Assembly (NCBI RefSeq): GCF_005047595.1
Contig: NZ_SUPL01000004.1
Location: forward strand, 248,001 to 312,000
Length of the DNA stretch: 64,000 bases
Source: Pontimicrobium aquaticum
Lineage (GTDB): Bacteria; Bacteroidota; Bacteroidia; Flavobacteriales; Flavobacteriaceae
Direction: 5' to 3'
The translations under genes were made by a program, and so were the position numbers. Below the pieces are notes generated by a model. The model was not told where the DNA came from, made no database searches, and worked only from the letters and a program-made list of their open reading frames with translations. This document shows positions 6,176-43,703 of the stretch, in pieces. How positions within the stretch are numbered: position 1 is the first letter of the stretch; each line of letters begins with the position of its first letter.

Positions 6176-6191
6176 TAGCCCACATGTTATT

Positions 6192-7376
6192 TTAATTCTG
6201 CATATAACTTTTTACCAAATCCACTAACGCTTTTCCGTGAATATTTTTGGCTATAACCACACCTTTATCGTCAAGAATAAAGTTGGCTGGAATGGTTTGA
6301 ATGCGAATTTTTTTCAAGAAGGGTGCATCATCCCCTTGTAACTCCGATGCTTGTATCCAGCGGTCTGCTCCATCTCGCTCAACAGCGGTTTTCCATGCAG
6401 AGGCATCACTTTCTAGACTGTAAGCTATAATTTGCAATCCTTGGTCATGATAATCATCCCAAAGAGGGACTAAAATCTCACGGTTTTCGATTCGGCAAGG
6501 TGCACACCACGATGCCCACAAGTCTATAATAGTAAGCTTATTGCCCAATTGGTTGTTCACCAAAAGAGTGTCTTTGTTGATTGTGGGAAGCTCTAGGTTT
6601 GGGAATGTATTTCCTACCAATACTGGCAAATTAGAGAGTTCACTTTGTTTACAAAGCTGTTCTACCCAAGGATGTTCTGGTTGTTGCTTCCACTTTGTGC
6701 ATTGTTCCACTAAAAATTCTGGTACACGTTCATAATCATTCACTGGGCTTACCCATCTTAAAGCCACTAGTGCTGGCATAAGGTACTTTGTGCTATCTGC
6801 AAACGTTATCAACTCATTTCGGTACTGTAATACAGCCTGTTCTTTTTCTAACAATTCCTTACCATCTTCTAATTGCCACTCCTTTCCAGCAAGATGGGTT
6901 TGGTAGGCATTCTGGTTGATATCTCTTAAATCTAGCAACGCTTTATTAACCTCAGAAGGTTGTTGTATAGACAAACTTTTTTGAAAACTCTCTAATTTAG
7001 CTGTCACATACAATGGCTCACCCAATTGCCATAATAGTGGCATGTAATTAGAGCTTGTTGGGTCGTCTGTTTGCTTATAGTTAGGTGTTTTTCCAGATGT
7101 TTGTATGACCAACTCCAGTAACATAGGATTTTTAGATGTTGGCAAGTTGCGGAACTCAAAGCTGCCATCAGGATATACTACAGCCGAATCTATAACCCGA
7201 CCAAAATAGGAAGCAGCCACCTCGTTCAAAAGGTCTGGTTCAATGAGGTACAGCTTTACATCTTTTGTTATGCTACCTTCTATATGTCCTGATATATAGG
7301 CAGGAGAATGACAAGAAACCAGAGTTACTATCAATAAAGCAATACTTGTGATACTTTTTACAGAGAGGGTTCTCAT
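6192..7376 (-). CDS. TlpA-like thioredoxin-fold lipoprotein with N-terminal DUF4369-like domain
   Basis: A 394-residue protein with lipoprotein signal LLIVTLVSCHSP. An N-terminal beta domain of the DUF4369 type (about 25-140) is followed by a helical linker and a C-terminal thioredoxin domain (about 255-393). The active site WASWCAPC is intact near residue 290, followed by the family's IPANFILDDKG cis-Pro region. Such proteins handle periplasmic thiol-disulfide exchange. It lies 39 bases downstream of the YceI-like gene on the same strand and may share its transcript. Its stop faces the DUF2207 gene's stop at a distance of 16 bases, with no obvious terminator between them. Confidence 0.88.
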   Translation of the reverse strand: MRTLSVKSITSIALLIVTLVSCHSPAYISGHIEGSITKDVKLYLIEPDLLNEVAASYFGRVIDSAVVYPDGSFEFRNLPTSKNPMLLELVIQTSGKTPNYKQTDDPTSSNYMPLLWQLGEPLYVTAKLESFQKSLSIQQPSEVNKALLDLRDINQNAYQTHLAGKEWQLEDGKELLEKEQAVLQYRNELITFADSTKYLMPALVALRWVSPVNDYERVPEFLVEQCTKWKQQPEHPWVEQLCKQSELSNLPVLVGNTFPNLELPTINKDTLLVNNQLGNKLTIIDLWASWCAPCRIENREILVPLWDDYHDQGLQIIAYSLESDASAWKTAVERDGADRWIQASELQGDDAPFLKKIRIQTIPANFILDDKGVVIAKNIHGKALVDLVKSYMQN

Positions 7377-7415
7377 ATATTTATCGAGACATAGCCTATG
7401 GCTTCATTTAACTAT

Positions 7416-8054
7416 TTAAAGTCTTTTAAGTAAAATATCGACATGTAAAGCCACTTCACTCCAAGTTTTACTAACACCATCTTCACCTGTATGTAATAGT
7501 TCGCAAGCTTTATGCAATGAAGCAAGTGCCTCCATGGCATCCCATTTTTCTAAATGCATAACACCATCAAAAGAAAGGTTGGTATCGCTAGAAGCGGTAT
7601 ATGTTAGTGGAATAGTCTCAGTGTTTCCATTTAACGTAACATCTATCGAGCAGGTATTATTGTCTGCTACCTTAAACACACCTGAAATAAATTCAGGGTC
7701 ATTCATAACATTAAAAAAGAACTCCAAAATTTTAGGGTCCCTTGTATTGGTAATATCATTGGTAAATAAACTACTTACAGGAATACTGAATTTAGCTCCA
7801 TTAAGGGCTTCTAAAGCCGTTTCGCCATTACCAATATTGGTGATGTTTACTTTTTTAAATTCACCACCAATAGCTATTTTATCCGTGGTTTTATAAGCGG
7901 TAAACTTTACTTTTGTAGAATCTTTTACCAAACTAAATGTGTTTTCTGAAGTTTGAGCTTCTTGTGTTTTAGTAGCATCATTTTTTTTAGACTCCTTGCA
8001 TGCTAATACTGCTATAAGTAGAAAGCTTAAAGCAACTAATTTTAAATTTTTCAT
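7416..8054 (-). CDS. YceI-like domain lipoprotein
   Basis: From ATG 8054 the protein has 212 residues and starts MKNLKLVALSFLLIAVLACK, a clear lipoprotein signal with Lys/Glu/Ser residues after the Cys. The upstream start at 8102 would add sixteen residues ahead of the signal peptide and is rejected. The rest matches the YceI lipocalin-like fold, which binds isoprenoid-type lipids in known members: VKFTAYKT, then GGEFKKVNITN, the N-terminal face of the barrel, and FDGVMHLEKWD near residue 160. Ligand unknown. It precedes the TlpA-like gene at 6192-7376. Confidence 0.82.
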   Translation of the reverse strand: MKNLKLVALSFLLIAVLACKESKKNDATKTQEAQTSENTFSLVKDSTKVKFTAYKTTDKIAIGGEFKKVNITNIGNGETALEALNGAKFSIPVSSLFTNDITNTRDPKILEFFFNVMNDPEFISGVFKVADNNTCSIDVTLNGNTETIPLTYTASSDTNLSFDGVMHLEKWDAMEALASLHKACELLHTGEDGVSKTWSEVALHVDILLKRL

Positions 8055-8190
8055 GTAACGTTGTTTTATTAAAACGGACTGTAAATTTACATATAAATAC
8101 AACGCATTGCTAAATACATTGTTAAAGATTTTAGGTTTCGTTTAAGCACCCAAACCGCTATTTTTTATAATACTGTTGGAAAATCATTAT

Positions 8191-8271
8191 TTATTCATCG
8201 ATAGTCCAAGCCTTAACTATTTTAGGTAACCTTGTAATAACTTCTTTTCCAAAAATCACCTCAGTTACTAG
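8191..8271 (-). pseudogene. truncated C-terminal coding remnant
   Basis: A 26-codon open segment on the minus strand ends in LPKIVKAWTIDE and a TAA stop (8193-8191). It has no start codon and an in-frame stop just upstream (8274-8272), five bases before the palindrome that bounds the transposase element. It reads like the tail of a real protein cut off at the element's edge. The parent gene is not recognised, and chance cannot be excluded for so short a stretch. The rest of 8055-8276 shows nothing else. Confidence 0.35.
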
Positions 8272-8276
8272 TCAAA

Positions 8277-8305
8277 TGTTACCGCGCGAATCTTTCGCGT
8301 GGTAT
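8277..8305 (+). repeat. REP-like palindrome, left copy flanking the transposase
   Basis: The core 8282-8302 begins CCGCGCGAA, has a TCT loop and ends TTCGCGTGG, so it folds into a nine-base-pair hairpin with one G-T pair. The exact reverse complement of the 21-base core stands at 8947-8967; four further matching bases (TGTT) extend the similarity on the outer side. The GC-rich palindrome contrasts with AT-rich surroundings. Confidence 0.85.
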
Positions 8306-8339
8306 TAACCCTTAAAATTCTGAAAGACACAAACATTAT

Positions 8340-8879
8340 CTAACAATCCTTTTTCTCCAGCATAATCTGCCGCACTACTGCACTACTGTATTTATAATCT
8401 TCTGCTTTAAAAACAATGCCTTCCTTAACTGGATTATTATGAATGTAATTTATTTTTTGTTGAATAACCCCATTGCTCCATAGTTCAATAGGCTTATTGT
8501 CATGACGCCAGAATTGAAAATTAGTGGTATTTGAACTCTTTTGAGCTTCCTTTTTAAAACAAGCCAATAAAAACTCTTTCCTGCTTTCTCTTGGGTTTTC
8601 TTGAATGGCTTTAATAACAGATTTACTTGTAAATCGTTTAAAATCTCCTAATAATAATTCTGGTTTTTGATGTTCAATACTTCTAAAAATTAAATGAACA
8701 TGGTTGGTCATGATGCACCAAGCATGTATTTCCATTCCTTTGTTTTTTTGGCAATAACTTAAGCTTTCTAAAAGTAAATCTTTGTATTGGTGCCTTGTAA
8801 AAACATCTAACCAACCTACTACAGCAAAACTCACAAAATACAAACCTTCTGGATTACGAAATTTATAATTTCTGCTCAC
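8340..8879 (-). CDS. REP-associated tyrosine transposase (Y1/HUH, RAYT type)
   Basis: A 179-residue single-domain transposase of the IS200-like Y1 superfamily, starting with GTG at 8879. The metal-binding His-hydrophobic-His motif is visible in MTNHVHLIFRS near residue 62. Downstream, the helix with QQKINYIHNNPVKEGIV and YKYSSA (about 140-168) is the conserved RAYT region; the nucleophilic Tyr is expected within it. RAYTs nick single-stranded DNA at REP hairpins and are usually present as single, domesticated genes. Here the gene sits between two inverted copies of a 21-base palindrome, 35 and 67 bases away, which fits that biology closely. No terminal IS structure or target duplication was seen. 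Confidence 0.9.
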   Translation of the reverse strand: MSRNYKFRNPEGLYFVSFAVVGWLDVFTRHQYKDLLLESLSYCQKNKGMEIHAWCIMTNHVHLIFRSIEHQKPELLLGDFKRFTSKSVIKAIQENPRESRKEFLLACFKKEAQKSSNTTNFQFWRHDNKPIELWSNGVIQQKINYIHNNPVKEGIVFKAEDYKYSSAVVRQIMLEKKDC

Positions 8880-8943
8880 TTATTTTAGCTTTGTTTAAAA
8901 ATAGTAAAGCTTTTTAAATAGGAACTGGATTAAAAAAATTAAA

Positions 8944-8972
8944 AATCCACGCGAAAGATTCGCGCGGGAACA
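8944..8972 (-). repeat. REP-like palindrome, right copy flanking the transposase
   Basis: The 21-base core 8947-8967 (CCACGCGAAAGATTCGCGCG plus one G) is the exact reverse complement of 8282-8302. Including the flanks, 27 of 29 bases agree. It lies upstream of the transposase start and ten bases from the stop codon of the next minus-strand gene. Confidence 0.85.
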
Positions 8973-8981
8973 GGGGATAGC

Positions 8982-9443
8982 CTAGAGGATTAAGTTTTCA
9001 AGAATTTTTAATTCTGATGTTTCTAAATTTTTAGTTGGCAAGTACAGCTCTTGTTTAGAGGAAAGACTTAATTTATAATAGGCCTTTCTTTTATGAGCCT
9101 TATCAATTTCAGAGTAATCAACTTCCGATTTTATTTTCCCTTTTTGCAAAAGCAGTTTATCAGCTTGAATAGAAACCTCAACATCAAAATTATTGTACCA
9201 ACTTTTTAAATAAAGCAACACAATAAATGGCTTAAGCATATAATAAACACCAAAGAAAATCATAAACCCTGCATAACCAATTCCTGCTTTTGTATTTCCG
9301 TTAGTATATTGGTTAATTCCCATAATGAGTATTAATGGTCCTGCTGAAAGTCTTAATATCATATAAGGGATACCATAGCCAAAGTAATACTCATTTAAGA
9401 ATATTTTTGTCATTTCAATTTTAGATAGTTGTTGATTTTTCAA
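8982..9443 (-). CDS. small membrane protein with PH-like (YcxB-type) C-terminal domain
   Basis: A 153-residue protein with two hydrophobic segments (about residues 28-45 and 53-73) followed by a soluble domain with strand pattern VEVSIQADKLLLQKGKIKSEVDYSEI. Two membrane helices and then a short PH-like sandwich is the plan of YcxB-like proteins; the assignment is by pattern only. It lies between the transposase element and the AbiH gene, on the same strand as both. Its 3' end touches the right palindrome. It may be host-derived or part of the accessory island. Confidence 0.65.
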   Translation of the reverse strand: MKNQQLSKIEMTKIFLNEYYFGYGIPYMILRLSAGPLILIMGINQYTNGNTKAGIGYAGFMIFFGVYYMLKPFIVLLYLKSWYNNFDVEVSIQADKLLLQKGKIKSEVDYSEIDKAHKRKAYYKLSLSSKQELYLPTKNLETSELKILENLIL

Positions 9444-9477
9444 AGGTTCACACTTGTTTCTTTAAACTCAGTTCTTT

Positions 9478-9494
9478 GTTAGCAATAGTTAATC
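9478..9494 (+). repeat. inverted repeat at the 3' boundary of abiH
   Basis: GTTAGCAATAGTTAATC ends on the last base of the abiH stop codon. It matches, with 15 of 17 bases, the reverse complement of 10578-10594, next to the start codon of the same gene. Confidence 0.6.
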
Positions 9495-10576
9495 TATGGG
9501 AAAAATGTGCTCTCCTCATAGTTTTTGAGTTTTACTCTTAAATCTTTTTCATTATCAATTATTCGACTAATTGAATATATCTGCTTATTAAATGCTTCTC
9601 TAATATTGGATAAATCATTCTTTAAATCACTTCTTTTAAAAAGGTGAATTCTATTACACTTTTGATTATTTAGAATTTCTTTTAACAAGGTTTTATCTGT
9701 TTGTGCTAATGAGTGGCCAATAATTACAACATCATATTCGTCGAAATATTCAAGTGCATCTTCATAAACTGAATTATATTTGTTGTTATTGAGATATTCA
9801 AAAGTTTTGAAAAAACGCAGGAATTCGTCTATTTCAGTAGCTTTGATGTCTTTATAATTAGGATGCTGATCATTTCCATATCCAAAAATTATGTCTTTGG
9901 AATCAATGTCGCCATGTATGTAATTTATTTTTATTTTGTCAGATTGCTCTATATAGTTTTCAATTGAAATGGTGTAATTGAAATTTATAACATAAACATT
10001 TTGGAAAGAATCTATATTAATTGAATTAAAAAACTTCTTTACATATCTGTTAGGTTCAGTTTTTATGGTTTTTAAGTATTCAAAAAGAGTTTCTTTTATC
10101 TCAATAAGATTATTATTTAACTCTACAATTTCTTTTGTTTTTTGTGCTTTAGAATTAGTTGTTTTAAAAATTGAAATTAATTCAAAAAAATAAGCATTTT
10201 CTATATCAAACCAATTTTCGAACTGGTTGCCAAATAGTTTACCTAAAAACCTATTATTGAGTATTTGTTTTAATTGACTTGAAAATAAATTAAGTGTATC
10301 TGGTAATTTTTCAGGAGTTTTAAGAATTTTGTGAGCTGTCAGACGTTGAATGAAATTTCCATTTTCATTAAAAAGATGATTTCGATTAATTTCATTTAAA
10401 AAGCTTTTAAAGATAAATTTTGACTCTTTTACTGAAGATCCGAATTCCATTATTTCGGCAGAGAGTTTTTTATCAATAATGTGATTTGCAAAGTCATTAT
10501 ACGATGTCTTATAGTTGTGAGCTAGGTCAAAACCATTTCCTATGATAAGTATTAAATTTTCTGATTTAAAATTCAC
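9494..10576 (-). CDS. AbiH family phage abortive-infection protein
   Basis: A 360-residue protein starting with GTG at 10576; there is no in-frame ATG until about residue 43, beyond the conserved N-terminus. The N-terminal motif LILIIGNGFDLAHNYKTSY (about 8-26) is the hallmark of the AbiH family, and the C-terminal YDVVIIGHSLAQTDK (about 277-291) is its second conserved block. AbiH was described as a lactococcal abortive-infection protein; its activity is not well defined, and the glycine-rich start suggests nucleotide binding. The gene is AT-rich, has no partner on the same transcript except possibly 8982-9443, and is bounded by short inverted repeats exactly at its ends, which suggests movement as a single-gene cassette. 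Confidence 0.9.
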   Translation of the reverse strand: MNFKSENLILIIGNGFDLAHNYKTSYNDFANHIIDKKLSAEIMEFGSSVKESKFIFKSFLNEINRNHLFNENGNFIQRLTAHKILKTPEKLPDTLNLFSSQLKQILNNRFLGKLFGNQFENWFDIENAYFFELISIFKTTNSKAQKTKEIVELNNNLIEIKETLFEYLKTIKTEPNRYVKKFFNSINIDSFQNVYVINFNYTISIENYIEQSDKIKINYIHGDIDSKDIIFGYGNDQHPNYKDIKATEIDEFLRFFKTFEYLNNNKYNSVYEDALEYFDEYDVVIIGHSLAQTDKTLLKEILNNQKCNRIHLFKRSDLKNDLSNIREAFNKQIYSISRIIDNEKDLRVKLKNYEESTFFP

Positions 10577-10577
10577 T

Positions 10578-10594
10578 GATTAATTATTGCCAAC
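10578..10594 (-). repeat. inverted repeat at the 5' boundary of abiH
   Basis: On the minus strand this reads GTTGGCAATAATTAATC and ends one base before the GTG start codon. It is the near-identical partner of 9478-9494. The remaining stretch to uvrA (10595-10750) shows only AT-rich sequence. Confidence 0.6.
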
Positions 10595-10750
10595 GGTTAA
10601 GATAAATTCAGCTTTAATTACAGTTTATCAACTGTCAAACGAAAGTAGTTATTTTTAGTAAGAAAATCAATACGTACTTCTACGTATATAAGCCTCATTT
10701 ATCAACAATACCCTGTTAGTATGTTACTTCCTATTTACCTATAAAATCTG

Positions 10751-42976: not shown

Positions 42977-43021
42977 ATGGATGCTGAATTTGCTTCAGTA
43001 TCGGTTGATAACATCAATTAA
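42977..43021 (+). other. 14-codon open frame in the promoter-proximal position
   Basis: ATG to TAA encodes MDAEFASVSVDNIN. It lies at the distance from the -7 element where start codons of other genes in this window are found (about 20-40 bases). It could be a leader peptide, the N-terminal stump of an interrupted gene, or chance. Confidence 0.35.
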
Positions 43022-43063
43022 AACTGAGTTTATTTTGACCATTGACAGCATTTTGAAAAAAAT

Positions 43064-43609
43064 ATGATTAAAGAAAACCTGAATTCAATATTAATTGGAA
43101 TTATATCAAGTATATTAGCTTCTATCTTGATATATTTCATAGTTCCGCTTTTAAGAAAATTAGGAAAGAAAATCGTCCTTAAAATTAGTGAGCGAAATAA
43201 AAAATTTAGAGAAAAAATAATTTCACGAATGGCAAGGAAACAATCCACACATTTAAAAGATATTTATCTCTTGACCCTTATGAATGTGATTATTGTTGTT
43301 GCTATCATAATGATTATTGGTGAAAATCTAGATTTTTCTACTAATTATTTCAGCGAAACAACTGAAATAGTTTTCTTATTTTCAATTATGTTTATCCTTT
43401 ATGTTGGATTTTTATTCAGAATGTTTACGACTGAATTAATAGTTGACCGAATAAGAAAATTTGAATTTGAAATAACTATGCTTGACGTTCATTTGAATAA
43501 AAAAGAAATCAAACTATTCAAATCAGAATGGGTTAAAATGAAAACCGAAAATGACTATTCTAAATTAAATAATAAAATATACAAGTTGTTAGCAAAATAT
43601 GAATGTTAG
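43064..43609 (+). CDS. small membrane protein of unknown function
   Basis: A 181-residue protein with three predicted membrane helices (about 10-27, 69-88 and 102-123), a basic stretch between the first two (RKLGKKIVLKISERNKKFRE) and a charged cytoplasmic tail (about 125-181). No family recognised. The sequence is very Lys/Ile-rich and AT-rich compared with recG and the TlpA-like gene around it, which suggests acquired DNA. It has no neighbour on its strand except the short frame upstream. Its ATG is preceded by an A-rich stretch, as usual here. Confidence 0.65.
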   Translation: MIKENLNSILIGIISSILASILIYFIVPLLRKLGKKIVLKISERNKKFREKIISRMARKQSTHLKDIYLLTLMNVIIVVAIIMIIGENLDFSTNYFSETTEIVFLFSIMFILYVGFLFRMFTTELIVDRIRKFEFEITMLDVHLNKKEIKLFKSEWVKMKTENDYSKLNNKIYKLLAKYEC

Positions 43610-43703
43610 AAACGTTATCAAACAACATGTATAGCTTATTGTAATTCATTATCTTTCTGTTACAGCAGAAAACCATGCACAAATCCGATAATCTGAACAA
43701 AAA

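Follow-up and report, generated by a model that had tools for sequence, protein, structure and literature searches.

The closest described counterparts of the system presented here are the sedentary chromosomal integrons of the Vibrio superintegron type, in which tens of single-gene cassettes stand in one orientation, together with attC sites built as imperfect palindromes (R''-L''-loop-L'-R') with a G/TT crossover (the slash marks the point of strand exchange throughout), and with a recombinase gene and an attI site at the head of the array. Single integron cassettes can also be integrated outside the array, at secondary genomic sites called attG. Bacteroidota are listed among the phyla with integrons in reviews (PMC8618304, PMC9668308); only one complete integron in Bacteroidetes, that of Salinibacter ruber, was given with IntegronFinder 2.0 (PMC9024848), and a Tenacibaculum genome paper using the same program reported no integrons (PMC10013915). 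In the openly searchable literature, no account of Flavobacteriaceae arrays, of long cassette-specific ends or of docking elements was found; the one paper there that mentions both AbiH and integrons does not link them.

The abiH gene considered here lies in a window of 64,000 nucleotides from Pontimicrobium aquaticum (Flavobacteriaceae; contig NZ_SUPL01000004.1, positions 248,001 to 312,000) and is, on the comparisons given below, very probably a mobile gene cassette of an integron-like system. The host system resembles the chromosomal integrons in the features named above, with an attI-like sequence where they have attI, and passes for one by most of the usual marks, but it lacks the IntI-defining one. 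It differs from them in recombinases that are nearest to XerA and have no IntI insert (about 14 residues against about 58 in IntI4), in an extra N-terminal part of ~95 aa on several of these recombinases, in an R' that reads GTTRnnn instead of GTTRRRY, and in cassette ends that are cassette-specific and complementary over about 14 nt. As in the attG cases, the AbiH cassette lies outside an array; its site is a recurring palindromic element, found both empty and filled. The protein is of the same family as the AbiH abortive-infection gene (PF14253), here carried as an integron-type cassette. An earlier note on this DNA knew of no described mobile unit of this form for AbiH; the unit is an integron-type gene cassette and as such of a known kind, though the variant is unusual.

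The abiH gene and its inverted repeat

The gene, its ends and the variable stretch around it are as follows.

9494 to 10576, minus strand: abiH coding sequence, 360 aa, GTG start
9478 to 9494, minus strand: predicted cassette 3' end (R'' side) and left arm of the repeat, GTTAGCAATAGTTAATC, in gene sense GATTAACTATTGCTAAC; shares one base with the stop codon TAG (9494-9496) and pairs with the 5' end except at positions 4 and 11
10578 to 10594, minus strand: predicted cassette 5' end (R' side) and right arm of the repeat, GATTAATTATTGCCAAC, reverse complement GTTGGCAATAATTAATC in gene sense; starts one base beyond the GTG (10574-10576), with strand exchange predicted between 10594 (G) and 10593 (T)
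6176 to 10594, no strand: stretch missing from sister species, between a DUF2207-like gene and uvrA, with AbiH as its uvrA-side end

The gene product was identified as AbiH by Pfam (PF14253, E 7e-32) and by PADLOC (AbiH, E 7e-10). The 17-base inverted repeat reported in the earlier note proved to be real: 15 of the 17 positions pair, the arms are placed exactly at both gene ends, and the core TTAAYTATTGCYAAC has exact matches at the two arms only in the whole genome. By itself the repeat is modest, being only moderately unusual for AT-rich DNA. An equally good pair was obtained in 1 of 600 shuffles of the ~88-nt flanks, and inverted repeats of like quality arise by chance within the same AT-rich 1.7 kb around abiH (e.g., pair I6), which speaks for a chance repeat in the flanks of an ordinary gene. 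The repeat is notable because of its placement at the gene ends, and it is the comparisons that explain this placement. Its exact position at both ends, the signature at position 11 and the first rank among the 67 open reading frames of the window (see below) count against chance, which is also contradicted by the ends of homologous AbiH cassettes and by the empty and filled docking elements, and we regard a chance origin as very improbable.

Some further candidates were set aside. An exact match of the 17-mer in genome G189 is due to chance and lies inside a coding gene, and an AbiH locus with an exact 17-bp inverted repeat (L016) resembles a pair of terminator hairpins. When two mismatches were allowed, the motif was only weakly enriched in the own genome (121, control 102), and no relevant Rfam family was found within the window.

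The stretch 6176-10594 as a single element is unsupported, and sister species carry different genes there; further genes absent from the sisters adjoin the AbiH cassette, and the stretch is therefore not one event. It also holds a Y1 (IS200-like, RAYT-type) transposase gene at 8340-8879 (window 8340-8964), with a CGCGAAAGATTCGCG hairpin ~70 bases upstream of its start.

A rule for cassette ends

When 299 genomes of the family were searched with the 17-mer, two loci (L077, L078) came to light in which the same boundary sequence surrounds tandem single genes, with long imperfect palindromes between them. One of the genomes (G078) contains a cassette array of ~40 kb, whose cassettes almost all share one strand and whose upstream end carries a tyrosine recombinase; in sister species, too, a recombinase is followed by cassettes with attC-like sites of ~125 nt between them.

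From the arrays of the own genome and its relatives, 67 single-gene cassettes in 8 genomes were taken. In each, the opening 17 bases, from GTT, were set against the last 17, to AAC, read as reverse complement. Cassettes start with GTTRnnnnn and finish with its reverse complement. Within a cassette, start and end agree at positions 1-9 in 93-100% and at positions 12-14 in 79-94% of cases, and 61 of the 67 have A at position 11 of the start and G at this position of the end. When ends were exchanged among the cassettes of one genome, the mean match fell from 12.7 to 7.8 of 17, and positions 4-9 matched in only 29-56%. Swapping the starts also made the hairpin predicted for the excised form less stable, by a mean of 5 kcal/mol. 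The ends are thus cassette-specific, alike within a cassette and far less so between cassettes. The classical attC consensus GTTRRRY does not fit these sites, and little R''/R' pairing was found inside one array site; the complementarity joins the two ends of a cassette instead.

AbiH obeys this rule with 15 of 17 matches, A/G at position 11 and one further mismatch at position 4. The unit consists of one gene with complementary ends, G/TT on the 5' side and AAC on the 3' side, and, scored by the rule, AbiH comes out at the top of the 67 window open reading frames (9.6; runner-up 6.3). On the preferred reading, the inverted repeat is the pair of cassette ends, which after circular excision would form the outer stem of the folded recombination site.

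For the complementary arms at the start and stop codons, the earlier note had suggested as its other possibility an mRNA whose ends pair with each other; such pairing would control abiH expression. In the same arrays, cassettes with many different, unrelated genes have such ends too, the distance to the start codon varies, and recombination explains them; the RNA-level role is not needed and is, in our judgment, highly unlikely as their cause, while a secondary effect of the arms on expression is possible.

Cassette arrays, recombinase and attI-like site

A covariance model of the attC-like sites, built from 12 sites, detected 24 to 55 sites per genome in six genomes of the genus. The own genome gave 44 matches, some in arrays on the small contigs C6, C7 and C10 and others dispersed one by one; single cassettes outside arrays are common. 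The host system therefore possesses cassette arrays with attC sites. At E <= 1e-6, sites were present in 132 of the 149 genera sampled of the family; in the phylum, only 42 of 148 genomes had sites, so the model does not fire indiscriminately.

A tyrosine recombinase gene is located at the head of the array. In the own genome it lies at C5:22282-23463 and is followed by the attI-like ATATAACACG/TT; in most of the best 30 recombinase loci, ATATAACnAG/TT stands directly behind the stop codon and is followed by the start of a cassette, and 17 of these 30 have an attC within 1.5 kb, several of the loci being cut by contig ends. The ATATAACnAG/TT region looks like a putative attI and head of the system. 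In 101 of the 149 genera there are relatives of the recombinase that reach E <= 1e-40. The array-head proteins are nearest to XerA and to the model 'site-specific tyrosine recombinase/integron integrase', with NF040815 as the best family. Aligned with the solved IntI4, the protein of the own genome (G000) matches on both sides of the integron-specific insert and not over it, residues 187-245 of IntI4 facing only 285-299 of the query, and the insert is likewise missing from the other aligned array-head recombinases. The IntI-specific additional domain was not found, TIGR02249 remaining below the cut-off in all 10 genomes. The array-head proteins presumably recombine the sites.

Most array-head recombinases (L106:10283-11464 of G000, L108, L105, L109, and L110) carry an N-terminal extension of ~95 aa, which gave no significant Pfam match and is missing from two shorter ones. 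In sister species, the attI-like ATCCACATATAACCAG/TT was also seen away from the main array (L148, L156), which suggests second array heads or relics. At the loci L196-L225, the recombinase gene is repeatedly no more than a few hundred bases away from where the contig stops, as is expected if cassette arrays break assemblies, and the cassette content of these genomes is probably undercounted.

The docking element

Outside the arrays, the outer base of AbiH abuts an element of ~50 bp.

10595 to 10643, minus strand: left part of the docking element, TTCGTTTGACAGTTGATAAACTGTAATTAAAGCTGAATTTATCTTAACC in gene sense; the same element stands ahead of ten different cassettes in the genus

The 5' flank CTGAATTTATCTTAA has seven exact occurrences in the own genome; the same ~45 bp, in most of them reading CTTCGTTTAAC..., stand ahead, and differing cassette starts follow at the same base. 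Including sister species there are ten filled copies, in which the element ending in CTGAATTTATCTTAA precedes AbiH and nine other cassette starts, always at the same point and with a constant crossover base. The complete docking element is a recurring palindrome of ~58 nt, TTCGTTTAAC-N-ATTAAACGAA, built like an attC without a gene. An empty copy in the own genome (G000:C2:51811-51868) reads CTTAACA/TTAAACGAA, and filled copies elsewhere read A/TT-cassette-attC-G/TTAAACGAA, a layout by which strand exchange falls between bases 1 and 2 of the cassette end. Several single cassettes of the sister species begin at the right arm of the palindrome and have GTTAAACGAA after their attC. Exact empty elements numbered 19 in the 299 genomes of the family, against 1 for the reversed control.

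Upstream of uvrA, the orthologous element is empty in two sister species (G200, G300); in the window, AbiH splits the right arm of this element at 10594/10593. The AbiH unit thus sits in a defined recombination site that is also found unoccupied, and the empty copies of the target end at the boundary bases of AbiH, as is expected of a unit with boundaries of its own. At AbiH the junction reads CTTAACCG/TT (CCG/TT), where the usual one is CTTAACA/TT (CA/TT).

Terminal inverted repeats flanking one gene, with a Y1 (RAYT-like) transposase gene nearby (8340-8879), might also point to a transposon or MITE-like unit moved by a DDE or Y1 transposase. Transposon families share their ends, whereas here the ends vary between cassettes yet match within each; insertion is confined to a single base of one element, and no target duplication is evident; relatives have attC sites and array-head tyrosine recombinases; and identical ends with target duplications were not seen on other cargo genes. 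A transposon origin thus seems scarcely credible. Under the preferred reading, as a cassette, GTT would be cut behind its first base by the tyrosine recombinase of the array head, which is encoded at another place in the genome. The cassette would enter an array at attI or attC or, in the case of AbiH, the right arm of the docking element that lies upstream of uvrA; the array-head recombinase presumably performs this reaction, with a folded single strand as the likely substrate. The end rule, the arrays, the docking element in both states and the homologous AbiH cassettes are demonstrated by comparison of genomes.

We lean towards a broader reading, that a near-universal integron lineage exists in Flavobacteriaceae, with XerA-like recombinases without the IntI insert, cassette-specific ends of ~14 nt as an extra outer stem, and dispersed, gene-less attC-like docking elements, which distributes defence genes such as AbiH and has largely been overlooked by tools trained on classical integrons. 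If the system works in this way, a large environmental bacterial family swaps genes, including defence genes, by a type of recombinase not known to operate integrons, and where and how cassettes land could readily be tested on the docking elements, empty and filled.

Homologous AbiH genes

The flanks of the seven nearest full-length AbiH homologs were compared, and the same kind of ends was found in five of them. In Tenacibaculum aquimarinum, AbiH (60% identity) is a single docked cassette with a complete attC, and in Lutibacter oricola (two contigs) and Wenyingzhuangia aestuarii (one contig) it lies between two attC sites as an array cassette. The AbiH of the metagenome-assembled genome (MAG) BB35 combines cassette ends with the short tail seen in the window. 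The genes of Flagellimonas and of a Saprospiraceae MAG are without cassette ends, and such ends were not seen in more distant AbiH genes of the family. The proposal of a cassette with its own boundaries is therefore supported by the end rule, by homologous AbiH cassettes, and by the empty and filled docking elements.

The missing attC and the short tail

No attC match was found by the covariance model near 9478, 3' of AbiH, even with filters off, and a complete attC is lacking. The following sequence stands where a normal attC of ~125 nt would be.

9453 to 9477, minus strand: 25-nt tail AAAGAACTGAGTTTAAAGAAACAAG, common to the AbiH locus L135 and to L150/L192

The tail AAAGAACTGAGTTTAAAGAAACAAG follows AAC; the other places that share it are the AbiH of BB35 and one locus in a sister species. 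It could be a site in miniature or what is left of a lost attC beside a decayed right arm. Within it, GTTTAAAGAAAC may represent the right arm of the docking element, at best in degenerate form, but the presence of this tail at two unrelated loci makes it possible that GTTTAAAGAAAC is no right arm at all. Judged from the lack of a normal attC, the AbiH copy is probably a stalled cassette, and the claim made here is accordingly one of arrival as a cassette and not of a present ability to leave.

A 28-nt sequence, AACAAAGAACTGAGTTTAAARAAACAAG, was observed with small variations after cassette-like 3' ends at three unrelated loci (L192 minus strand 3331, L135:3596, and window 9453-9480) and is possibly a miniature attC. 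A second dispersed cassette, in a decayed state, is present in the window at 43012-43692, with a 181-aa open reading frame (43064-43609), a weak attC match at 43618-43692 (18.9 bits, E 0.008), and a degenerate docking element, ..CAATTAAAACTGAGTTTATTTTGACCA/TTGACAGC.
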